From: Lentisphaeria bacterium
GTDB taxonomy: Bacteria > Verrucomicrobiota > Lentisphaeria > JABSQK01
Direction: 5' to 3'
Assembly (NCBI GenBank): GCA_013215875.1
Contig: JABSQK010000017.1
Location: 1 to 58,898, forward strand
DNA length: 58,898 nucleotides
In this document: one piece after another, positions 13,590 to 57,595 of the stretch
How the letters are laid out: each line of letters starts with the position of its first letter
Numbering within the stretch: position 1 is the stretch's first letter
Program-made: the position numbers and the translations under genes
The notes under the pieces: generated by a model
Database searches by the model: none
Seen by the model: only the letters and a program-made list of their open reading frames with translations
What the model was told of the DNA's origin: nothing

Positions 13590-14740
13590 GAATTTTCAAG
13601 TAATTCTTCGTAGGCTGCTTCGAGTTGGGTAACCATGGTATGCCAATCCCACTTAATCCGCACAAAATCCTGGCCAATGATGCCCATTTCTTTACGTGTT
13701 TCAGGGTCTTTATAGAGCTTTACCAGAGCGGCCGAGACTGCCAGGTCACTTTCCGGTGCGCAGAGGTAGCCTGTTTCTCCATCGATTACAACTTCCGGGG
13801 CGCCATCTATTTTGTAGGAAACGACGGGAACTTTGGCGGCCATTGCCTGTACAAGGGTACGGGCCAGGCCTTCTCTGAGAGATAAATGAACCAATACATC
13901 CATGAGACCGACATAACGCGGTATTTCTGACGGATCAACTAAACCGGTGAATATGAAATAATCTTTTAGCCCAGCCGCTTCGATTTGGTCTGATAATTCC
14001 TGGCGTAGAATACCATCGCCAATGAGTAAAAATTTAATATTGGGGATTTCCTCTATGACTGCGGCGGCGGCTTTTATAAGATATTTATGTCCTTTGAGTT
14101 CAAACAAGCGGGCAATTTTTCCCACTACAAAGGTATCGTCTGATATATTGAGCTCTTTGGCCAGTTCCTCATCGCGCGGGCTATTGAGGTAGGGTTCTAG
14201 GTCCATGCCACTGTAAACGGTCTGGTATTTAGTCCGTGGAGCGATGCCTGCTTCGACACATTGATCGATCATCGCATCTGCAACAGCAAATATGCGATGG
14301 CAGCGTTTGGCTGCAAAGCGCTCAGCCATGATGAAGATTCTATTTTTAAAATTTGACTGATATTGGTGAAACGATTGTCCATGGACAGTGTGGACAATGA
14401 CAGGAATATTGCATCTTTTTGCTGCGATCCGCCCGAGGATTCCAGCCTTTGAGCTGTGTGTATGGACAACATCGAAGGATTCACGTCGAAAAATGCGTTC
14501 CAGTTCCTTTATGGTTGAGAACTCACTGGTCCAATGAATTTCGCGCTGAAGATTTTCAAGCACTTCCACTTTGAGATTTGGCAATTTCTGATGTTGTAGA
14601 AGCCGGCCTTCAGGCCCTTCTGTAGGTCCAGTAACAAGCACAGTCTCGTGGCCATTTTCCAGATGCCCTTTTATTGTAAAAAGGGTATTCTCTTGAGCAC
14701 CACCCACAATCATTCGGGTGATGACATGACATATCTTCAT
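13574..14740 (-). CDS. Family GT4 glycosyltransferase
   Basis: A 388-aa GT-B fold glycosyltransferase. The N-terminus has the glycine-rich MIVGGAQENT segment; the acceptor-side motif FDVVHTHSSKAGILGR (about residues 89-104) is typical of GT4. The C-terminal half shows VVGKIARLFELKGH and the nucleotide-sugar motif region SLREGLARTLVQAMA, in which the second Glu of the EX7E motif is Gln. It probably adds a sugar to a lipid or polysaccharide at the cytoplasmic membrane; donor and acceptor unknown. It stands alone, divergent from the hybrid kinase. Confidence 0.85.
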   Translation of the reverse strand: MKICHVITRMIVGGAQENTLFTIKGHLENGHETVLVTGPTEGPEGRLLQHQKLPNLKVEVLENLQREIHWTSEFSTIKELERIFRRESFDVVHTHSSKAGILGRIAAKRCNIPVIVHTVHGQSFHQYQSNFKNRIFIMAERFAAKRCHRIFAVADAMIDQCVEAGIAPRTKYQTVYSGMDLEPYLNSPRDEELAKELNISDDTFVVGKIARLFELKGHKYLIKAAAAVIEEIPNIKFLLIGDGILRQELSDQIEAAGLKDYFIFTGLVDPSEIPRYVGLMDVLVHLSLREGLARTLVQAMAAKVPVVSYKIDGAPEVVIDGETGYLCAPESDLAVSAALVKLYKDPETRKEMGIIGQDFVRIKWDWHTMVTQLEAAYEELLENSQRQN

Positions 14741-15045
14741 ATCATATCCAGGTTATTTTGTCTACACTATAGGACTTTTGCTCTTATTTTAAATGAAAAT
14801 AGCAGTATAAATTTATTTGCAAAAATGAATCTTATTTCCTATACTAGCTGGAGATGGTTTGGGATCTTTCAATTGTGGACTAAAACACGGGTAATGAAGG
14901 GCTTGCGTATATTCAACATATACAATTCCCTTGGGAGAATCGATGCACATGATGTTGAATAGAAGAAATAACAGTATCTATTTGTTACATTGTCAGGGAG
15001 CCAGAAGCTAAATATATGGATATTGAGTCGATAGGTAAGTAATTG
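14741..15045. other. 305-bp divergent intergenic region
   Basis: Lies between the starts of the glycosyltransferase (minus) and the hybrid kinase (plus), so it should hold both promoters. It is AT-rich. I saw a 7-bp inverted repeat (TATAGGA/TCCTATA) and a GTATAT/ATATAC repeat but no convincing gene, operator or terminator. An AGGT sequence 9-12 bases before 15046 is the likely ribosome-binding site of the kinase. Confidence 0.4.
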
Positions 15046-18000
15046 ATGAAAAAGCAATATAGAAATTTTCCCATTGAATTGTGCGCAGTATTGGCAATCT
15101 GCGAAATAGTAATTGCAGCATTTGCTCTATTTGTATATAACTACCGGGTCGTACCTCTCCTCCAAAAAACAGAAGCGGAGTCCTTTGTTAACGTGCAAAA
15201 CTATTTTACTGACAGGGACTTACATGCTAGGATTAACAAAAAATTTCATGTTACCGAAGCGCATAAGGTAAAACGAAACAAAAAAATCGTCAAATCTACC
15301 CAGTCGAGCCCTTTAATTTCAGAGACTGTAAATCTTATTTTGAATCAAAGTCCCGACCGTGTGCAAATCGTCAATGACTCTACAAACAGCAATTTTCAGT
15401 TTGTTATAGTCCCGCTCTATGAAACCTCAAAAAATACGCCGGATCATTATCTGGTTATACGAAAAGCGAATTCCCTTGGTAAGAAGATCGCCAAACACAA
15501 TCGCTTTCTTATTGCTGGAGCGATTTTAATTATCGCATTTTCCCTTTGCCTGGTCTACTATTTTTATACGTCGACAGTGACCAAATCCCTGCATGAAGAC
15601 ACTGCACTTTTGTCGGCGTTATTGAAAAGAGAACAATTGCCAGCGAGTGAAACAGTGGCAGACAAAGATCTCTCGCAACTTCAGGAAATGTGCAAAAATG
15701 TTTATGAAGAGATGACTGCACAAATTTCCGATATATCGAGCAGTGAGTCTCAGTATCGGGCCACATTTGAGCAGGCTGCAGTGGGCGTTGCATTGCTGGA
15801 CCTGAAAGGTAACTGGTTGGTTGTGAATGACCGTATGTGCGAAATTGTTGGTTATGAGCGGCTTGATCTGCTGCAATTAACCTACCAGATTATTACCTAC
15901 CCTGACGATCGCCATGAAAGTAATGAAGCGATCAATGAAATCCTTGCTAAAAAGCGCGATAAATACAATGCAGAGATGCGGTATATTCACAAAGATGGGT
16001 CAATTGTCTGGGTGAACCTGACTATCAATCTATTAAAAGATGACGAAAACCAAGCGGATTTTTTCTTATTGGTTTCGGAAGATATTACACAGTATAAGGA
16101 AACCCTGGAATTTCTCAAAAAAAGTGAGAGAAAAATCCGAGCCATATTTGATAATGCACCGGACATTATCGCCGAAGTGGACCAAAATGGAATCTTAAGC
16201 TATACCAATATCCAGCACAAGCTCAGCGATTCTCAGTTTGTGACCGCACACAGTATTTATGAGATTATCCATGATGATCATAAGATGCCGATCAAAGAGG
16301 CAATTACCAAAGTATACGACACAGGTGAGCAACAGAGCTTGGATTGCCTGGCATACAGCAATGATGATGAACTGGTGTGGTATTCCATCCGTATCGCTGC
16401 CATACGAAAAGGGAATGACGATAGCGATGACGAAATTGGGACTATTCTTTATGCGATAATTTTTGCTACTGATATATCAGAAAATAAGAAATATGAGAAC
16501 CGTCTTGTGAAAAGCGAGGCCCGTCTTGCAGAAGCCCAGCGCATCGCACATCTGGGCAGTTGGGAGCACATCTTTGCAGATGGTCAGGTGCATTGGAGCG
16601 ATGAATTATTTTATATTCTTGACTACAAAGTAAACGAAGTTGTTCCTAGCACCGATGCATTGATCGATGCTGTGCATGAGGATAATCGCGAAATGGTTGC
16701 CAACTTTATTTCACTCGCCATTAAAAAGGGTAAACCCTTTGAAGTCGAATTTAAGGTGCAGACAAAAAATGAAGAATTGCGGTTTATCCATGCCAATGCA
16801 GAAATTATTTTTGATGGCGATGGCAAGCCGAATAAACTGATTGGTACGGCTCAGGATGTAACAGAACTCATATTAGCTAACTCTGCGCTTAAGGATAGTG
16901 AAGGGCGCTTTGACCTTGCTGTATTGGGTGCTAACGATGGTATATGGGATATCGACTTCCAAAATGATACCCGCTATTATTCACCCCGACTGAAATACCT
17001 TCTTGGTTTTGAAGAAGATGATAATTTTGAAATAGAAAATCTGATACATCCTGAAGATATGGAAAATTATCAGACTGCGATGGATCATCATATAGATGAG
17101 CATGAACCGTTTTCCATAGAGTTGCGTTTGCAGCACAAGACAAATGATTATCTGTGGTTTCAGATTCGCGGGCAGGCTGTATGGGAGCGCAATGGCAAAG
17201 CCACACGCATGGCTGGATCGATTCGTGATATCAGCAATTCGAGAAAGATGGAACAGAGAATTCGCACGTCCAATAAAATGGAAGCCCTTGGAAACCTCGC
17301 TGGTGGAATTGCCCACGATTTCAATAACCTTCTGGCAGGGATAACATCGTGTGCAGATCTCATAAAACTAAAATCGAGTGAATCAAATAGTCATACTAAA
17401 TATACCGATGAAATTCTGAAAATGACGAGTCGTGCTGCGGATCTAACCAAGCAACTATTGGCATTTTCACGAAAGAAAAATTTGCATAAAGAGCCCATCG
17501 ATATACATGAGATGATTAATGAGGTTGCGACAATTCTTACCCGTACGATTGACAAGCGTATTCAGATAGAGACAGAGCTGCTGGCTCCCGAATCACTCAT
17601 AAGTGGTGATACTTCACAAATTCAAAGTGCAATTCTCAATCTTGGAATCAATGCCAAGGATTCAATGCCTGAGGGCGGAATGTTGAAATTTATAACTGAA
17701 ATCGAAGAGCGTGAGAGTATTGAGTATATAAAGATTCTCGTTACTGATACGGGCAAAGGTATTCCCCCGGAAAATTTGGATCGCATTTTCGAGCCTTTCT
17801 TTACCGATAAAGAAATTGGCCAGGGTACGGGGCTTGGTTTGGCTGCTGTATACGGTACAGCGGAATCGCACAATGGAGAAGTGAGCGTGAAAAGTGCTCT
17901 GGGTGTAGGCAGTTGCTTTGTCATGAGCCTTCCTTTGTCTAAGCAATTAGGTATAGAGGTTGCCCTTGAAGACCGCATAGTAAATGGTTCCGGTTGTGTA

Positions 18001-43455: not shown

Positions 43456-43547
43456 TTGTTATAGAATCGAATTACTCTGAGCGAGCACTATCGCCTTGAA
43501 ATTCGTGAAATTTATGATTTGTTTAACTATTAAATCATGGAGATATG

Positions 43548-44756
43548 ATGAATAGACAAGCGCTCATTATTTCAGCATTATTGCTGAGTCTTATTACGTA
43601 TGGGGAAACAGTAAAAAGTAAGGGGTCTGGGGACAATCGAAAAGCCGCCACTTTAAATGCCTTGGGCGCTGCGGTAAGACAGGTAAATGGCTTAGCCGTA
43701 GGCGAAAAAAATAAATTAACAAACAGGGTGGAATCTTTTACCGAGGATCTGAAAAAATCGTTGGAGTCTTCTGAAGAGTTTGAATCAAATGTTAAATCGT
43801 TAAGCTACGGATATATCTCTTCATACAAAGTATTGAAGGAAACAAAAACTGCCAAAGGTGTGGATGTGGAGCTTGAAGTAGTTGTCGAAAAGTTTGATCC
43901 AGCCAAGCCGCGTCCGGGAGTTCCGCGAACAATCATTGTATTACCTTTCGACAGTAAAAAAGAATTCACCCTGCTGAAGAAAACCTACAAGGGAAAAGAT
44001 ATTGCAGATGCATTGCAGACGATGATCATTACACAGCTGGTTAAATCCAGAAACTTTACTGTATTGGACCGTAATAATCTGGACAAGGTACTTAAAGAGC
44101 AAAAACGTAAATGGTCGACTCATATTGCGGATAGTGAGCTGATAAAATTTGGTAATATGTTAGGTGCAGATTTGATGGTGATTGGTAAGATACGTTCTAT
44201 GACTGCGAAGCGAAAAGAAGTACACAAAGACTTGCTGGGTGAGACAGATGTCTATTTATACGCCGGGGCAAATATCGAATACCGCATGCTGAATATATGG
44301 ACCGGGGCGATCGTAAAAATGGAGTTAATCGATTTTAAGGACCAGATTGATCCAGCGATAATGAAAAAATCTGCTACACCATTTACCGATTATATTCTTG
44401 CCATAGCTGCATTCGAAATTTTGAATGAAACCTTAAACCGTACAAATCCTATAAAGGTCGTAAAGGTATCTACCTCCAAATCCTTCAAGGCAAACGGTGC
44501 CAAAGCATTGACGACGATTTATCTCAATCAGGGTAAAGGGCGTTTAAGCTCAGGCCAGCAGCTGGTCATCTTTAAGAAAGGTGAGAAACTGACCGATCCG
44601 GATACGGGTGTGGAATTGGGAACAGAAGATGTATTGGTCGGTGTACTTGAAGTGATGAGCGTAAAAGATAAATATGCCATCGCCCGTTTAACACTTGGCC
44701 ACGCGGAGGCAATAAATCGCGGGGATATTTGCCTTTTCCCTAAAAAGAAAAAATAA
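43548..44756 (+). CDS. CsgG-like secreted protein
   Basis: A 402-aa protein with a signal peptide (about 1-20). Residues about 125-260 match the CsgG-type nucleotide-like fold: PRTIIVLPFDSKKEF, then DALQTMIITQLVKSRNFTVLDRNNLDKVLKEQ and GADLMVIGKIRS. N-terminal ALGAAVRQVNGL suggests a region common in LPP20/FlgT-type proteins; the C-terminal part may also resemble FlgT. Likely a periplasmic or outer-membrane accessory. The start at 43548 is preferred over the ATG three bases upstream because GGAG then lies 5 bases away. Followed by DUF2726 after 2 bp. Confidence 0.7.
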   Translation: MNRQALIISALLLSLITYGETVKSKGSGDNRKAATLNALGAAVRQVNGLAVGEKNKLTNRVESFTEDLKKSLESSEEFESNVKSLSYGYISSYKVLKETKTAKGVDVELEVVVEKFDPAKPRPGVPRTIIVLPFDSKKEFTLLKKTYKGKDIADALQTMIITQLVKSRNFTVLDRNNLDKVLKEQKRKWSTHIADSELIKFGNMLGADLMVIGKIRSMTAKRKEVHKDLLGETDVYLYAGANIEYRMLNIWTGAIVKMELIDFKDQIDPAIMKKSATPFTDYILAIAAFEILNETLNRTNPIKVVKVSTSKSFKANGAKALTTIYLNQGKGRLSSGQQLVIFKKGEKLTDPDTGVELGTEDVLVGVLEVMSVKDKYAIARLTLGHAEAINRGDICLFPKKKK

Positions 44757-44758
44757 AC

Positions 44759-45265
44759 ATGGGTGACTGGACCGGTAACTGGTTATTCATTCTTACTGCT
44801 GTTGTACTTGGTACTTGCTTTGTCATCTGGCTTTATAAAAGCAAAAAGCCTTACTTGCCCTATGAAAAACATGAATCCATTCTTACTCGTTCAGAGTTGG
44901 TATTTTACCAGGTACTGAAAGAAGCGGTGGCGCCTTATTCCTTCGATATTATGTGCAAGATTCGCATGGCCGATTTTGTTACAGTGGAAAGTGGTGCGGA
45001 AGAATGGCGAGCTCATTTCAATAAAATACAGGCAAAGCATGTGGACTTTCTTCTTGTCGACAATGATACTATGGAACCACTGATTGTGGTCGAGCTTGAT
45101 GATGCTAGCCATAAGCGGCCTGACAGGATGGAGCGCGATAAATTTGTGGATTCAGTCATGGCACATTGCGGTATCGGTATTTTGCATATTGCAGTATCAA
45201 AGGAATATGAATCAGATGTTATTAGTGAACAGATACATCAATTAATGAAAAAGTTGAAAATCTAA
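44759..45265 (+). CDS. DUF2726 membrane-anchored protein
   Basis: A 168-aa protein with one N-terminal membrane helix (about 8-25) followed by the DUF2726 domain: RSELVFYQVLKEAV, CKIRMADFV and VDFLLVDNDTMEPLIVVELDDASH, then RDKFVDSV. The D-x-n-E-x-D pattern resembles restriction endonuclease-like folds, so a nuclease-like function is possible but unproven. It follows the CsgG-like gene by 2 bp and is the last gene before the cassette-like region. Confidence 0.82.
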   Translation: MGDWTGNWLFILTAVVLGTCFVIWLYKSKKPYLPYEKHESILTRSELVFYQVLKEAVAPYSFDIMCKIRMADFVTVESGAEEWRAHFNKIQAKHVDFLLVDNDTMEPLIVVELDDASHKRPDRMERDKFVDSVMAHCGIGILHIAVSKEYESDVISEQIHQLMKKLKI

Positions 45266-45280
45266 TTAATAGTTCCACTC

Positions 45281-45296
45281 AGTAACAAAGTTATGA
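45281..45296 (+). other. Possible left boundary core of the cassette-like region
   Basis: AGTAAC-AAA-GTTATGA is a compact TAAC/GTTA repeat 14 bp upstream of the first cassette-like gene. The GTTATGA resembles the GTTRRRY core of attC sites but lacks arms. It may be a boundary or remnant; weak by itself. Confidence 0.2.
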
Positions 45297-45309
45297 ATAG
45301 AAGAATAAA

Positions 45310-45963
45310 ATGATCAGCCCATTTGATCAAGATTATATATTGACCAAAAAAGTCAAGAAAGAGGAAGGCGAACTTCTATCTCCTTTTCTAGAATTATCCG
45401 ATTGGGTTGAGAAAAAATATGATGTCAAAATACTCAATATAATTTTTGATATATGTAATGACCGACCGAGAATACAAATAATTTTGGAATTTGAATCAGA
45501 TAAAAATAAATTCCATGAAAGCGAATCTATCAATTTAAATTTAGAAAAAATGAATGCAATTTCAAGCAGGTTTAGAGATATAATAGAAAAAGAAAAGATA
45601 CCCAATTTTAAGACAGAGAAGCTGTTTACAATATTCTCAGCGTTTGCACCCCTCGCAATTGAAGAGGCGCACAATAGTATAAGTGAGACAGAACTAGAGG
45701 ATCTGAGAATAGACCTAAATAATAATCTATGGAAAATCAGATGTTTATTCGGCGTGGTTACCTTTTTCTATGAAACTGAATCTCAGAGAATTGAATCTGA
45801 GGATGATGAAATTGACTTAAAATATAGAGAAGCTTATTTTGAAATCATAAAAAAATATGATGAATTTAATTATTTAGATAGCAAAATATTGAAAATAGAA
45901 TACGATTCGAAAGAAAAATTTGATAAAGATTACAATGGTAGCTGGTTTAATTATGACAGGTAA
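45310..45963 (+). CDS. Hypothetical protein of cassette-like region (1)
   Basis: A 217-aa acidic, AT-rich-coded protein with no signal peptide or membrane helix. Asp, Glu, Lys and Ile dominate; the codon use is markedly more AT-rich than in neighbouring genes. No family recognised. It starts 14 bp after a GTTATGA core-like sequence and is followed 18 bp later by the best folded attC-like element of the first cassette. Confidence 0.6.
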   Translation: MISPFDQDYILTKKVKKEEGELLSPFLELSDWVEKKYDVKILNIIFDICNDRPRIQIILEFESDKNKFHESESINLNLEKMNAISSRFRDIIEKEKIPNFKTEKLFTIFSAFAPLAIEEAHNSISETELEDLRIDLNNNLWKIRCLFGVVTFFYETESQRIESEDDEIDLKYREAYFEIIKKYDEFNYLDSKILKIEYDSKEKFDKDYNGSWFNYDR

Positions 45964-45980
45964 AAAACTATTAAAAAATC

Positions 45981-46076
45981 ATATAACAAACGCATTCAGA
46001 TGAACATCGACATGTCATTAGCCTCTGCGAAGCAGATGCATGCCATTCCGCTGATCACTGATGCGAGACGTTCGAA
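45981..46076 (+). other. attC-like site 1
   Basis: The element starts with ATATAAC and ends with GTTCGAA. Inner arms CGCATTCAGATGA (45991-46003) and TCACTGATGCG (46055-46065) pair when two single bases of the 5' arm are left unpaired, as with the extrahelical bases of attC sites. Both outer AAC/GTT boxes and short spacers are in register. An apical TCTGC-GAA-GCAGA hairpin forms the tip. Length 96 bp fits the attC range. Confidence 0.55.
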
Positions 46077-46088
46077 AAGGAGAAAGTG

Positions 46089-46463
46089 ATGAAAAGGTGC
46101 TTGCTAATTTTGCTGACAGCAGTTGCATTTACGGGATGTGTCAAAAGCCTTAACTACCCAATTGCGCTGGAAGACAGCCTGACAGAAGTCGAAAGAACGA
46201 ATCTGAAGCTTCCTGCAAAGAGAACGCTTACTCGTGAAACAAAGACAGACAAAGAGTATGCTGCAGAACTATCTCCTACCATGATCAAAGCGATATTATA
46301 CTACTACTACAATTCCGGCACAAAAGCTGTAATCTATGCAGCCCGCCCCGTGGGAGGCTACTTGCTTCTGTGGCTTGAATTCCCTTATGTAGGAGAGGGT
46401 AGAATAGGTGTGATCTGGTCAGTCAAAGAAAATAAACCTGTCGGAATATTCGAAGGACAATGA
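46089..46463 (+). CDS. Small hypothetical lipoprotein of cassette-like region (2)
   Basis: A 124-aa lipoprotein (lipobox FTGC, Cys about 17). The mature part has a repetitive Thr/Glu-rich beginning and an aromatic segment YYYYNSGTKAVIYAARPVGG. An AGGAG lies 6 bases before the ATG at 46089 (a GTG one codon upstream is rejected). It starts 12 bp after the core of attC-like site 1. No family known. Confidence 0.6.
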   Translation: MKRCLLILLTAVAFTGCVKSLNYPIALEDSLTEVERTNLKLPAKRTLTRETKTDKEYAAELSPTMIKAILYYYYNSGTKAVIYAARPVGGYLLLWLEFPYVGEGRIGVIWSVKENKPVGIFEGQ

Positions 46464-46465
46464 AT

Positions 46466-46507
46466 TCCGAACAAATAAATTCAAGCTGGTCAATTAAAAC
46501 GTTATCT
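46466..46507 (+). other. Weak attC-like element 2 (short)
   Basis: GAAC-AAATA-AATT pairs in register with AATT-AAAAC-GTTATC across a loop of about 10 bases; it ends with AACGTTATCT. At 42 bp it is shorter than a normal attC, so it may be a truncated site or chance. Listed because it lies at the expected cassette boundary. Confidence 0.25.
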
Positions 46508-46523
46508 ATAAAGGAATCATAAG

Positions 46524-47192
46524 GTGCCAAGAACAAGATGCCCGCACTGTGGATGGAAAGATGAAGTAGATGAAGAATTTATTGGGAAGCACGTAGAATG
46601 CCCAGAATGTGAAGAAGAATTTTTATCAAAACGATTAAAGAAGAAGAAAAAGCGATCTTTTAGTTCGGCAGCATCTTCTAGTATGCAGGTAGACGAAGCC
46701 ACTATGGCGAATGAAGGCTGTGGTGTCTATCAGGAAGGTAATGCACTAGTCGTTAAAAGGGAGGCAGTATTTCCAAGTCGTTGTGTCAAATGCAATAAAG
46801 AAGCGACAGATCATATCAGACATAGATTTAGTCATGTTAGTCCACTGATATTACTTACATTCCCTTGTGGCATCTTACCAGTTTTAGTTTTATATTTTAT
46901 TTTTAGAAAAACTGTAGTATACCAGATACCACTTTGTGGACGTCATAAGAATCTTCGGAAAATTACTAAAACCATAGGGATCTTACTCACACTACTTTCA
47001 TTCATAGGATTCCTTTATGCTACTTCTGGTGAAAGCGTGATTTATATTGCTGTCTGTGGAGTCAGTTTCATTTTTGGACTTGCCTTTATTATTGCTAGCA
47101 GACCTTTAAGTCTGATGAAAATAGATGACTATTTTGTTACGTTTGAACAGGTGAACATAAAATTTTTACAGAGTCTGCCTTCTAGGCGTTAG
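46524..47192 (+). CDS. Zinc-ribbon membrane protein of cassette-like region (3)
   Basis: A 222-aa protein starting with GTG (AAGGA 8 bases upstream). The N-terminus is a zinc ribbon with two CxxC pairs (CPHCGW and CPECEEEF), followed by a KKKKKR-rich linker, a second CVKC half-ribbon (about residues 86-92), and two or three membrane helices (about 108-128, 147-163, 170-190). The zinc-ribbon-plus-membrane arrangement is common in uncharacterised bacterial proteins; function unknown. It lies 16 bp after the GTTATCT core. Confidence 0.65.
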   Translation: MPRTRCPHCGWKDEVDEEFIGKHVECPECEEEFLSKRLKKKKKRSFSSAASSSMQVDEATMANEGCGVYQEGNALVVKREAVFPSRCVKCNKEATDHIRHRFSHVSPLILLTFPCGILPVLVLYFIFRKTVVYQIPLCGRHKNLRKITKTIGILLTLLSFIGFLYATSGESVIYIAVCGVSFIFGLAFIIASRPLSLMKIDDYFVTFEQVNIKFLQSLPSRR

Positions 47193-47259
47193 TCCATGCT
47201 AATGGTAGTTCGAGGAGTAATATAATTTAACTAACTGTGCTGAAACATAATAAACAAAC

Positions 47260-47337
47260 AGATAACAAGCGCTATGTGGATTTCATTTTATCCATCTCGA
47301 GTTATGTTGAAATGAAACCACAAGCCAAACGTTCTAG
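47260..47337 (+). other. attC-like site 3
   Basis: Outer boxes AGATAAC and GTTCTAG flank long inner arms: TGTGGATTTCATTT (47275-47288) pairs with AAATGAAACCACA (47310-47322) with a single extra A on the 5' arm. Spacers between AAC/GTT and arms are both 8 nt and mostly unpaired. This arrangement (R box, spacer, L box with one extrahelical base on the 5' side, variable tip) is the defining attC architecture. Length 78 bp. Confidence 0.65.
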
Positions 47338-47418
47338 ATTAATGGAGAACTTGAAATAAGCGAGTACGAGACAGAGCTTCCATTGATGGTCCGGATTGCT
47401 GAACGATTACATCTCATA

Positions 47419-47778
47419 ATGAAATTTTTAATAAAGCACTGGCGCAAAATTGGTATATTTATATTAATTATAATTTGTGGGATTTCACTCTTCCTTTATA
47501 TAGTGTATAGGGACCATGTGAATGGAAGGTGTAAATGGAACCTTGAAATTATTCACAATGTAAGGGTTAAGTATCATGATGACAATGGTGTTTGGCCGAA
47601 TAAATTGAAAAGCTTAGGAAAAAAAATTGGGCGAATTAATTTAAATTGCTGGAGAGGGGCTTCCCAACAGAGTTATAAATTAGATATAAATGGAGAATTA
47701 TTTTGTTTAAATGATCATTATGGTTGGACATATAGAATTACAAAAAAGGGTGAATTTAAAAAAATAAAAAATGATTAA
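47419..47778 (+). CDS. Small single-pass membrane protein of cassette-like region (4)
   Basis: From the ATG at 47419 the product is 119 aa: N-terminal positive residues, one membrane helix (about 10-31), then a Lys/Asn-rich domain with GVWPNKLKSLGKKIG and two cysteines. A longer in-frame start at 47383 would add 12 residues. The segment around the NGVWPNKL resembles pseudopilin-like C-terminal parts, but the N-terminal prepilin motif is missing. Unknown function. AT-rich. It follows attC-like site 3 after 81 bp. Confidence 0.55.
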   Translation: MKFLIKHWRKIGIFILIIICGISLFLYIVYRDHVNGRCKWNLEIIHNVRVKYHDDNGVWPNKLKSLGKKIGRINLNCWRGASQQSYKLDINGELFCLNDHYGWTYRITKKGEFKKIKND

Positions 47779-47780
47779 AA

Positions 47781-47829
47781 TTATAAGAAGTCGGCCAATC
47801 AGACAAGCCGGAGACTTAAAACGTTATGC
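47781..47829 (+). other. Weak attC-like element 4
   Basis: TTATAAG-AAGTC-GGC can pair with GCC-GGA-GACTT followed by AAAACGTTATGC; the core GTTATGC fits known attC cores with one deviation. The 5' R box has AAG in place of AAC and arms are short. Likely a degenerate site; weak alone but correctly placed after the fourth gene. Confidence 0.3.
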
Positions 47830-48150
47830 AAACCATCAGGAGTCTGAAATGAAACTGAAGAAGATTGCTGGAATTATCTTCACGCAAGAATAATTTTGGA
47901 GTCATTTGTCATTTTTGTGAGATCCCATGCCGGCATTTAAATCCAGCTGAAGAAAACAGTTCCTGTGTTGCGGAAACAAATTGAGCAGTACACTAGCATC
48001 TCTCATGCTTGTACAATCTAATTTATTGTTATATATAATTCTTGGCTAATTTATTCATGTGTGAGTATTGCCTGTTGATTTACGCTTGCATGTCTCTATA
48101 TTTGCCCTTCATTTTTTTATTCATTCGTATTACCAGACAAGGAATCAGCA
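47830..48150. other. 321-bp gap before the ABC-F gene
   Basis: Holds a 14-codon open frame (47849-47893, MKLKKIAGIIFTQE) with a CAGGAG upstream, directly after the GTTATGC core; it may be the broken start of a fifth cassette gene. A 10-bp palindrome ATGCCGGCAT lies at 47927-47936. The ABC-F promoter presumably sits in the AT-rich last 130 bp; no other gene is visible. Confidence 0.35.
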
Positions 48151-49749
48151 ATGATCACAGCATCAAACATCACAATGCGCTACGGGCAACGAACTCTTTT
48201 CGAAGATGTTTCGGTAAAATTTCGCCCCGGGAACCGTTATGGTTTGATCGGTGCGAATGGCTCTGGTAAGTCGACATTTATGAAAATTCTTAGTGGCGAA
48301 TTGACATCGACATCAGGAGATGTTGCGGTAGATACAGACTGTACGCTGGGTTACTTGAGACAGGACCATTACCAATTTGATGAAGAGATGATCATCGATA
48401 CCGTGATGATGGGCAATAAAGTAATTTGGGCACTACATACAGAACGTGAAGAGCTGTATAGCAAGGGTGACCTAAGCGATGAAGAAATGAATCGCATCGG
48501 CGAAATTGAAACTGAGTATGGGGAAGCCGGCGGTTATACCATGGAGCCAGAGGCTGCAAAATTGCTGGTGGGCCTGGGTATTGATGAAAGCAAACATTAC
48601 GAGCCAATGACCTCTCTTGCTGGTGGCTATAAACTTCGGGTATTACTGGCTCAGGTACTTTTTGCAAATCCGGATATACTTCTATTGGACGAACCGACGA
48701 ACCATCTCGACATGGCAAGTATTGACTGGCTGGAAGACTTTTTAAAACGTAATCAGGGTACAGTTATTGTAATCTCTCATGACCGCTATTTTCTCAACTC
48801 TGTTTGTACTCGCATTGCCGATCTGGATTTTCAGGAAATAAGAGAGTTCGCTGGAAATTATGATGATTTTATGATTGCCAATGCAATCGTTCTTGACCAG
48901 CAGCAACGGGACAAGGCAAAAAAAGAAAAGCGGATAGATCAGCTTCAGGGATTTATCAATCGTTTTAGTGCCAATGCCAGTAAAGCGAAACAGGCGACAT
49001 CTCGCCAGAAAGAAATGGATAAAATAAATGTTGGTAAATTGAAACCGAGTTCGAGAGTTTCACCCTATATCCGTTTTGCTCCTATTGTCAAACTTGGGGA
49101 AAAAGTCATTGAAGCTACGGATATTTCTAAGACGTTTGATGAGGCGTTGTTTAAGGATGTATCAATTGAGATAGGCAATGGGGAAAAGATTGCAATCATC
49201 GGTACAAATGGTGTGGGCAAAACCACCTTGATAAGAATACTCATGAAAGAACTCGCTTCAGATAGCGGGACCGAGGTTATTCTTGGTGAAACAGTTCACT
49301 TCGCATATTTTCCGCAGGATGCCAGCGATGTAATTTCCGGTGACGAACCTGCAATAGACTGGCTGTTGCGATTTAAGCCAGATCCTGAATTGCCTGATGA
49401 TGAGGTGCGTTCGATTATGGGCCGTATGCTCTTTCGCGGTAAGGAAGTTGATAAGTCTGTGTCGATACTCAGTGGTGGCGAACGGGCGCGTATGGTTCTT
49501 GGTAAAATGATTCTTGAAGGTGGTAATGTATTGGTTCTTGATGAGCCAACCAACCATCTGGATTTGGAGTCAATTGAGTCATTGAATTACTCACTTGGCC
49601 TTGTAAAAGAGACGGTCATATTTGTCAGCCACGATCGTGAATTTGTAAACAGCCTTGCGACTCGCATAATTGATATACGTGATGGACAAGTCTTTGACTA
49701 TCCTGGTACGCTTGAAGAATATGAATATTGGAAAACCAAGCAGGCATAG
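48151..49749 (+). CDS. ybiT: ABC-F family ATPase, YbiT type
   Basis: A 532-aa soluble tandem-ABC protein without membrane segments. Both ATPase halves show Walker A (GANGSGKST, GTNGVGKTT), signatures (SLAGGYKLRVLLAQ, LSGGERARMVLGK), Walker B (LLLDEPTNHLD twice) and H loops. The inter-domain linker is charged, and the sequence closely follows the YbiT type, including the GFINRFSANASKAKQATSRQKE linker segment. ABC-F proteins act on ribosomes at the E/P site to ease stalled translation. Monocistronic. Confidence 0.93.
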   Translation: MITASNITMRYGQRTLFEDVSVKFRPGNRYGLIGANGSGKSTFMKILSGELTSTSGDVAVDTDCTLGYLRQDHYQFDEEMIIDTVMMGNKVIWALHTEREELYSKGDLSDEEMNRIGEIETEYGEAGGYTMEPEAAKLLVGLGIDESKHYEPMTSLAGGYKLRVLLAQVLFANPDILLLDEPTNHLDMASIDWLEDFLKRNQGTVIVISHDRYFLNSVCTRIADLDFQEIREFAGNYDDFMIANAIVLDQQQRDKAKKEKRIDQLQGFINRFSANASKAKQATSRQKEMDKINVGKLKPSSRVSPYIRFAPIVKLGEKVIEATDISKTFDEALFKDVSIEIGNGEKIAIIGTNGVGKTTLIRILMKELASDSGTEVILGETVHFAYFPQDASDVISGDEPAIDWLLRFKPDPELPDDEVRSIMGRMLFRGKEVDKSVSILSGGERARMVLGKMILEGGNVLVLDEPTNHLDLESIESLNYSLGLVKETVIFVSHDREFVNSLATRIIDIRDGQVFDYPGTLEEYEYWKTKQA

Positions 49750-49794: not shown

Positions 49795-50817
49795 TTACTC
49801 AAGTGATTCAAGACTGAAAGTGGTGCCCGTCTTATACTTGTCAATATTCTGTCCTAGTTTTTCAAGTTTAGTCCTTTTTGTGAATATTTTTATGACCTTA
49901 TCATTTTCATCTGTAATCACAGCGACGAATGAGTAATATGCATAAACGTTTGAATTCCCCCTAAAGTATCGGGTGTAATTTTGAGAATAAGAATGTTTAA
50001 ATTGAATTTCTTTCGCTACGGGAACTTCAACACTTTTACTGTATGTATTAATGATCTTTAAGCTTTTTCTAGATGTTGTAAGCTCACCTACAACCAATAA
50101 AATAAATGTATAATCGTTGAGTTCAACGGTATTTCTATTCTTAATTTTAACTTCAAGAAAGAAATCATCAGACCAGGTAATATAGCGTCTATATGAAGTC
50201 GCCTTAGCCCCTTTTTTCTTTTTCAAGATAACTTTGAAATCGATTTTTTTGTGAAGATTTACAGGCAGTTCATTCGACTCTTTTTTTGATATGGCCTCTG
50301 CTTTATCCGTTTTGTCTGGTTTTGTTTTCTTGCCGAAAAGAGCAGCGATATCAAAGCGAGTATCAAGCAATTCATAGAGACTTTTATCAAATCCAGAATT
50401 CTCCAGTTTGACCAGTTGAAGAATTACTTTCTGTTCATCCGGTTCAAAAACGTCTGCTAGCTTGGCATTTAGGAGGCAAAGATTACCCCGAGGATCGTCT
50501 TTAATGAGCTTTTTAACTAAAGCGTCATTACGCTTAATGAGATTCGCTAGGAAACGTTTTAAAGTGACGTTGCTTTTGATTTTTTCCGGATTCTCTCCAT
50601 TTTGAATCTGTCGATATGTTGATATGACATTTTCATCTTTCGGATTGATGCACAGGGCATATTTTAAGAGAATTTTTGCTTCTTTACTTTCAGGATTATC
50701 TATAATCTTATTGGCACCAATGATGCCCGCATATTTTCCTAGAGAGATATCAACCTTGTCTGCAAATAATGAATTTGAAAGGACAATGCTTATTGTAAAT
50801 AAACGAAATGCTCTCAT
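49795..50817 (-). CDS. Hypothetical secreted protein, paralogue A
   Basis: A 340-aa protein with a signal peptide ending at FADK (about residue 20). The N-terminal half is helical with TPR-like features (LLKYALCINPKDENV), followed by a KR-rich linker and a beta-rich C-terminal half with repeated KNRNTVELNDYTFILLVVGE. It is a clear paralogue of the next gene; both begin DKxDxxLGKYAGII after the signal. No known family. AGGAG ribosome-binding site before the ATG. Convergent with ybiT. Confidence 0.7.
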   Translation of the reverse strand: MRAFRLFTISIVLSNSLFADKVDISLGKYAGIIGANKIIDNPESKEAKILLKYALCINPKDENVISTYRQIQNGENPEKIKSNVTLKRFLANLIKRNDALVKKLIKDDPRGNLCLLNAKLADVFEPDEQKVILQLVKLENSGFDKSLYELLDTRFDIAALFGKKTKPDKTDKAEAISKKESNELPVNLHKKIDFKVILKKKKGAKATSYRRYITWSDDFFLEVKIKNRNTVELNDYTFILLVVGELTTSRKSLKIINTYSKSVEVPVAKEIQFKHSYSQNYTRYFRGNSNVYAYYSFVAVITDENDKVIKIFTKRTKLEKLGQNIDKYKTGTTFSLESLE

Positions 50818-51044: not shown

Positions 51045-52058
51045 CTACTTAAGTGAGTTCAGGTTGAACGTAGTGCCTTTTCCATACTTGCCGAGATTAG
51101 GTGAAATATTTAACAGTATGGTTCGTCTTGAGGCAGATTTGATGACTTTGTCATTTTCATCTGTAATCACAGCCAGGTATGCGTAGTATTCAAATTCTGT
51201 GTTAGAACATCCCGCGTGTTGATGCCATGAATGTGTATAAAAATGCTTTATTTCAACTTGTTTGGCTTTGGTAATTGAAAACTTTTTAGTGTAGGAATCT
51301 ATTATCTTCATGCTTTTCTTTGCAAATGGATGAACCCCCACAGTAAGTACAGTTATCGTGTAATTTTCTATTTCTACAGTATTCCTGTTCTTAATTTTAA
51401 TTTTGTATGACAAGTTATCAGTTTTATCAGAATGGGAATAGTTTCCTTTTTTCTTTTTAAATGAAACGGTAAGATCAATTCTTTTATGAAGGTTATTTGG
51501 CACTTCTTTCGATACAGTTTTTGTTTTACCAGATGTTTTCTTCTTTTTGCCTGCTTTCTTTTTCGCACCGAATAGTGCATCGAGATCAAATTGAGAATCA
51601 AGCAAATCATCTAGTTCACCTTCAAATCCTGCTTTTCCCAGTTTCACTAATTGAAGAATTACGCTACGTTCATCTGGCTTAAAAACTTCAGCTACTTTAA
51701 CATTTAAGAGGCAGAGATAGCCCAGAGGGTCGTCTTTTTTAAGTGTTTTAACCAGGGCCTTATTGCGCTTCAAAAGAGCGTTCAGGAAACTGTCTATTTT
51801 TTTAGTGGTTTTTATTTTACCCGGTTTCATTTTGCGTTGTATTAGCCCTTTTGTTAAGAGGACATTTTCATCATCCGGATTGATGCACAGGGCATATTTT
51901 AATAGAATGAGTGCTTTTTCGTTACTCGCATCTTTTGCGAGCCTATTTGTAGCAATGATACCCGCATATTTTCCTAGTGTTGAGTCTATTTTGTCTGCGA
52001 ATACTGTAGTTGATACGAGTAACCCCAGTAATATTTTGATACGTATTTTCATGTCCAC
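51045..52058 (-). CDS. Hypothetical secreted protein, paralogue B
   Basis: A 337-aa paralogue of the previous gene with the same order: signal peptide (VFADK at about 22), LGKYAGIIATNRL, ALILLKYALCINPDDENV, and a beta-rich end with KNRNTVEIENYTITVLTVGV. The linker is more Lys-rich (KKKAGKKKKTSGKT). The start is GTG at 52058 or, more likely, ATG at 52052. The 227-bp gap to the paralogue suggests separate transcription; it is divergent from yaaA. Function unknown. Confidence 0.7.
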   Translation of the reverse strand: MDMKIRIKILLGLLVSTTVFADKIDSTLGKYAGIIATNRLAKDASNEKALILLKYALCINPDDENVLLTKGLIQRKMKPGKIKTTKKIDSFLNALLKRNKALVKTLKKDDPLGYLCLLNVKVAEVFKPDERSVILQLVKLGKAGFEGELDDLLDSQFDLDALFGAKKKAGKKKKTSGKTKTVSKEVPNNLHKRIDLTVSFKKKKGNYSHSDKTDNLSYKIKIKNRNTVEIENYTITVLTVGVHPFAKKSMKIIDSYTKKFSITKAKQVEIKHFYTHSWHQHAGCSNTEFEYYAYLAVITDENDKVIKSASRRTILLNISPNLGKYGKGTTFNLNSLK

Positions 52059-57436: not shown

Positions 57437-57595
57437 ACTCTACCAACTATAAATGTTCGGGTTGCTTGTAGCCTTTTTGCGCCAACACAGATATCTTTCA
57501 ACAGTATCAGTCGCTTACTACTGATACTGTTTCCAAGACGAGCTGTGGCATCAAAAATTCAAGCAAGCAAGACGACATTTAAACGTTGACAGAGT
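57437..57595. repeat. 159-bp imperfect foldback (attC-like polarity)
   Basis: The two halves pair along their entire length: outer ACTCT/AGAGT, then CAAC/GTTG, TAAATGTTCG with CGACATTTA (an extra T on the 5' arm), TTGCTTG with CAAGCAA, TTTTTG with CAAAAA, and a perfect apical 12-bp stem (57500-57511 with 57520-57531) closed by CGCTTACT. The 3' end has AAACGTTGACA, like the attC-like cores at 46-48 kb. It lies in the gap between the hydrolase and the last gene, and could be an attC-type site, a mobile foldback or a structured RNA. The rest of the gap (57349-57436 and 57596-57652) shows nothing else except an AGGG site before 57653. Confidence 0.7.

Follow-up and report, generated by a model that had tools for sequence, protein, structure and literature searches.

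The stretch of DNA analysed here (the window; JABSQK010000017.1, 58,898 bases) carries a cluster of four attC sites at 45281-47829, all on the + strand, and we read this region, with a probability of about 0.92, as a small chromosomal CALIN in which four cassettes, each made of an ORF and an attC site, lie in series. A CALIN is defined, in an excerpt of PMC9024848, as at least two attC sites in cassette layout with no integrase nearby. At this locus the four neighbouring sites, where two would suffice, are packed within 1.85 kb, each follows one ORF, presumably promoterless, in a common orientation, and the 58.9-kb contig is without an integron integrase, the genome's matches to PF00589 and TIGR02249 all being on other contigs. 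The observed part of the CALIN reading consists of the sites, their order and strand, and their relatedness both to attC sites on other contigs of the genome and to those that adjoin integrases of relatives. CALINs are a known kind of element to which the locus adds another example; measured against CALINs as treated by IntegronFinder it differs in nothing essential, two of its four sites being degenerate. Its neighbours are a DUF2726 gene on the left (44759-45265) and, on the other side, a gene for an ABC-F-type ATPase.

An earlier note on this DNA had described four small same-strand genes of unusual AT-richness, and ORFs are indeed found at the positions listed, all on the + strand. If recombination is assumed to cut every R' box after the G of its GTT, cassettes 2 (46071-46501, 431 bp), 3 (46502-47331, 830 bp) and 4 (47332-47823, 492 bp) are bounded by the cuts of adjacent sites and hold a single ORF each: gene 2 (46086-46463, 125 aa), gene 3 (46524-47192, 222 aa) and gene 4 (47383-47778, with an ATG at 47419 inside the listed ORF). 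Cassette 1 (45291-46070) comprises gene 1 (45310-45963, 217 aa) and attC site 1; its right border was given by covariance model R3 (described below) and its left border, placed at the G of a GTT at 45290, is uncertain. Judged by eye, gene 2 has a lipoprotein-like N-terminus and gene 4 encodes a small membrane-anchored protein, while the product of gene 3 has a zinc-ribbon-like start and hydrophobic stretches. Searches against Pfam, NCBIfam and PADLOC matched genes 1, 2 and 4 to no family, and paralogues of the cassette proteins were absent from the other contigs of the genome that were examined. Gene 3 has weak relatives in 25 of 387 genomes of the phylum (its own included; best other match 31% identity, E 1.8e-12), with none of the matches in the same order; it is an orphan and is counted in support of the CALIN reading, and the cassette genes are new orphans. 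The claim of AT-richness does not hold for every gene: the GC contents of genes 1-4 are 0.294, 0.442, 0.374 and 0.287, and gene 2 thus exceeds the left flank, where GC averages 0.418. The GC of the region as a whole (0.348) is low yet ranks 10th among 1127 sliding windows across the window and is not the lowest.

ACGTT terminates each of the four elements, as the note had said, and the full attC architecture that it recognised in two of them (R'' AAC, R' GTT, paired L'' and L' arms, extrahelical bases on L'') was found in those same two. In attC site 1 (45981-46076, R' box GTTCGAA) the arms CGCAT[T]CAG[A]TG and CACTGATGCG are bounded by AAC and GTT; in 47260-47337, a member of a repeated family, the arms are GCT[A]TGTGG[A]TTTCATTT and AAATGAAACCACAAGC. 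On the cassette strand each has its 5' arm lengthened by two unpaired bases, like attC sites beside integrases elsewhere, and the C that precedes GTT is invariant among 27 attC sites used for training. The bottom strand of site 1 folds with -19.7 kcal/mol (z -3.2; matched by 3 of 200 shuffles) and that of 47260-47337 with a z of -2.6, again equalled by 3 of 200 shuffles. The remaining two elements are short or degenerate, in line with the note. The 42-bp site at 46466-46507 has R'' and R' boxes and no stable bottom-strand fold (0 kcal/mol), and the site at 47781-47829, in which R'' reads AAG instead of AAC, folds weakly (z -1.5, 17 of 200 shuffles as good); its 3' arm (GCCGGAGACTTAAAACGTTA) recurs identically in an attC site of contig C171 (C171:3963-4011). 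Both are probably decayed, and the cassette row appears to be partly fossil. No clear site was seen at the left border of the row, where 45283-45294 carries TAACAAAGTTAT, an apparent R'' fused directly to R'; our guess is that this is perhaps an attC site collapsed by loss of its hairpin, and the motif TAACAANGTTAT of these positions occurs once more among 242 loci. Just past the last attC site, 47849-47893 holds an ORF that stops early, after 14 codons, and is preceded by what by eye could be a ribosome site; a fifth cassette may have left this remnant.

Recognition of the sites was based on three covariance models. R1, in the form of joined half-sites and narrower than R2, was made from 27 attC sites picked from six plasmid stretches and from 37 genome loci at which the integrase on contig C689 has relatives; R2 was built on 61 sites from 44 sources gathered with R1, none contributed by the window's genome; and R3 was built on 22 sites of that genome, taken from 14 stretches on contigs other than the window's. 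As the training set of R3 includes homologues of 47260 (C229, C174) and a relative of 47781 (C171), some found via the window, R3 is not independent for these two sites. A loose box-and-arm scanner was used solely to choose training sites beside integrases and was rejected as a means of decision, being too permissive and giving chance hits elsewhere in the window. One hit of this scanner, on both strands, is a long imperfect palindrome at 57441-57591 that is not an attC site by R3 at E<1.

The general Rfam models gave nothing on the window at gathering scores and chance matches only at loose E over 45000-48200. R1 likewise found no attC site in the window, and its unfiltered matches over 44500-48500 were weak (<=3.9 bits). 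With R2, run unfiltered over 43500-49500, site 1 ranks first (17.6 bits, E 0.0012, or a whole-window E of ~0.01 by scaling) and 46466-46507 fourth (5.9 bits, E 2.4). Of 47260 this 6-kb search recognises the start but joins it to an incorrect 3' half (7.4 bits), and 47781 is not listed. R3, run unfiltered over the whole window and both strands, placed exactly the four claimed sites first, all on the + strand: 45981-46076 (32.7 bits, E 5e-5), 47260-47337 (28.5 bits, E 4.8e-4), 47781-47829 (22.1 bits, E 0.015) and 46466-46507 (22.0 bits, E 0.015), the next best match having 13.7 bits and an E of 1.4. The CALIN-like interpretation offered in the note is supported by this ranking. The two or more significant sites that it had proposed to look for with a covariance model were thus obtained with R3, but R2 makes site 1 alone significant and R1 none.

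A wider search for intI and further sites, also proposed there, found both, namely an integrase on C689 and some 43 attC sites, which are spread over 17 contigs. The latter number comes from a census at E<=0.1 per search (35 + 4 + the window's 4 = 43 sites), in which 22 of the 43 trained R3 and so match by construction. At E<=1, R3 gave 38 matches in 13 of 14 stretches of the genome's own contigs, all 38 on a single strand per contig; contig C3 gave one weak opposite-strand match (E 0.52), and C121, C270 and C542, small contigs of the genome with tyrosine recombinases, gave nothing. On C534 (L018, G000:C534) a 34.3-bit R3 match at 2125-2171 lies ~100 bases beyond a match to a different tyrosine recombinase, on the opposite strand. 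R2, which found additional attC sites outside the window when the genome bin was searched, marked one-strand rows of sites on C51, C171, C317 and C438 when run unfiltered on five of its contigs; two of the weak matches, those with E over 0.5, are on the opposite strand. The whole-genome searches are lower bounds, 150 of 196 and 150 of 1519 candidates having been scored; the window's own sites are not among the matches listed, probably because 150 candidates alone were scored.

A DNA search with 47255-47340 gave, below E 1e-6, 13 further copies, on C229, C679, C174, C580, C560, C368, C51, C295 and C438. The region of site 45981 has no other copies in the genome. An alignment of 15 copies with their flanks (the window and C101 included) agrees from TAACAA to ACGTT only, some copies being partial; a shared core between unrelated flanks is as expected for an attC family attached to differing genes. 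Within the family there is little covariation, both partners being altered in 2 pairs, and the figure for paired cells (89.1%) does not improve on that obtained by shuffling (88.9%), with 39-53% when slid; this counts against the CALIN reading. Tetranucleotide correlation with the window is 0.92-0.94 for C229, C101, C317 and C560, compared with 0.90-0.96 for pieces of the window itself and 0.22-0.71 for foreign loci, so the sites on these four contigs belong to the organism; C51 (0.576) is less clearly a member. Single attC sites lie within the chromosomal contigs C229 (by R3) and C101 (by DNA likeness).

The earlier note was right that the window has no intI, but the genome bin does contain an intact integron integrase, on C689. 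This open ORF of 414 aa scores 383.4 bits with TIGR02249 against a cut-off of 265 (386 bits in a second profile search), and has the HxLRH...Y catalytic motif and the integron-type insertion (KYPDCPYEWHWQYAF), so that family cut-off, catalytic motif and IntI-specific insertion are all present; the XerC/D-like ORFs of C121 and C270 are without such an insertion. Integron integrases usually diverge from their array, and as the start of intI is 238 bp from the end of C689, where a divergent array would begin, an array may have been cut off from this contig. R3 gave no match on C689, and no attC array adjoining intI was seen in the genome, so a complete integron is not assigned. A Rep3 initiator gene adjoins the integrase and makes C689 a possible plasmid; its tetranucleotide correlation is 0.689 against 0.90-0.96 for pieces of the window, and we are unsure whether it is part of the window's organism. 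The same contig (L015, G000:C689) encodes at 14605-15087 a DUF2726-like protein with 41% identity to that of 44759-45265, left of the cassettes.

Relatives outside the genus and family of the window's genome were compared. An integron integrase is found at E<=1e-40 in 11 of 59 genomes (the window's own included). Over 86 kb beside such integrases in three relatives of the class R3 gave 87 matches at E<=1. Those of L225 and L226 are without exception on the + strand and those of L227 and L228 on the - strand, opposite to the integrase (a short stretch beside an integrase, L229, gave none); the model therefore recognises genuine attC arrays and is not just fitted to its own genome. At E<=0.01 it found matches in 9 of 12 chosen genomes, and in the surroundings of seven selected positions of G013, G003 and G018 it gave 81 matches at E<=0.1, one strand per stretch. 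The near-complete genome G013 has dense one-strand arrays at three places distant from its integrase, one of them on the other large contig, and G003, of the same order, has three sites with no integrase at E<=1e-40, which argues that dispersed cassette clusters are natural to the group and not merely an effect of assembly. A flanking CsgG-like gene had a match in 2 of 38 other relatives.

Three other explanations of the cluster were weighed. The repeated family at 47260-47337, present on many contigs between unrelated flanks, is what a MITE would show, and the sites might be dispersed hairpin repeats of such a kind (MITE- or REP-like) with AAC and GTT ends by accident. A model built from foreign attC sites nevertheless detects site 1, the model built from the genome itself marks arrays that directly adjoin integron integrases, the extrahelical bases are on the 5' arm, each site is separated from the next by a single ORF, all on one strand, and an informal look noticed no target duplication; we therefore consider a repeat of another kind very unlikely. 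Slightly less probable still is that a complete integron lost its integrase to the assembly and that the cluster is the part of it left in view. CALIN counts are inflated in draft genomes, according to the part of PMC9024848 dealing with them, and the bin is fragmented into 876 contigs, but the contig ends are 45 kb and 11 kb from the cluster, no further site in the window exceeds 13.7 bits and PF00589 matches are absent from C79.

That the elements are chance palindromes among four ordinary genes has a negligible probability. The loose scanner does yield such hits elsewhere in the window; against this, the four sites top the whole window by covariance model and have DNA homologues elsewhere in the genome. 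Chance is rejected for sites 45981 and 47260, and with less force for 46466-46507.

For the CALIN a plausible origin can be proposed. An integron integrase that recognises the folded bottom strand of attC may have released the cassettes from a larger array in circular form; they would then have been inserted at a secondary (attG-like) site or retained after loss of the local platform; the integrase of C689, or a similar one, could act in trans. Sites 45981-46076 and 47260-47337 are predicted to recombine still, so that genes 2 and 3, which they flank, could leave jointly as one circle, while the short sites 46466-46507 and 47781-47829 are probably dead or weak. Sedentary chromosomal integrons (superintegrons) carry homogeneous repeats, such as the VCR of Vibrio cholerae, and like them the genome has a near-identical attC family joined to unrelated genes, the spacing of site 1 resembling the VCR layout. 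Unlike them, it has its repeats across many contigs, some with single sites (C229, C101), and no array was seen joined to the integrase. Xanthomonas CALINs located away from the integron, described in a section of PMC12444791, are similar small cassette clusters at chromosomal places outside an integron, in a different lineage. Insertion at attG (Loot et al. 2024, as cited in passages of PMC12444791 and PMC12901181) would account for cassettes lying at a secondary position, here as a candidate reading.

The wider surprise, beyond the locus itself, is that the class is rich in dense, dispersed cassette arrays, a point worth specialist follow-up. It is possible, though we hold it doubtful, that throughout the class the chromosome serves as a cassette store, with scattered arrays kept by integrases, sometimes tandem pairs and even on another contig, so that dispersed CALINs and not one attI array hold much of the pool. 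How cassettes come to lie outside integrons, and whether such clusters are maintained by integrases acting in trans, become testable in natural genomes. Inspection of the bare sequence was enough to recognise attC sites, although the lineage is AT-rich and poorly described and a general model misses most of them. The integrase of Lentisphaera araneosa is named in an excerpt of PMC3108266, the sole integron paper by title in a literature search for Lentisphaer* and attC.

Two further observations were made in passing. Two similar adjacent proteins of ~340 aa are encoded on the - strand at 49795-50817 and 51045-52058, where the AT content of the window is highest, and an ORF on C171 (L066:1620-2930) resembles them at its start. 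Integron-integrase-like genes occur as same-strand pairs at four places in three relatives of the class (G010:C1:1889559-1891779, G018:C47:7870-10089, G018:C10:162584-164992 and G014:C61:848-2621), one member of the pair often being far weaker.
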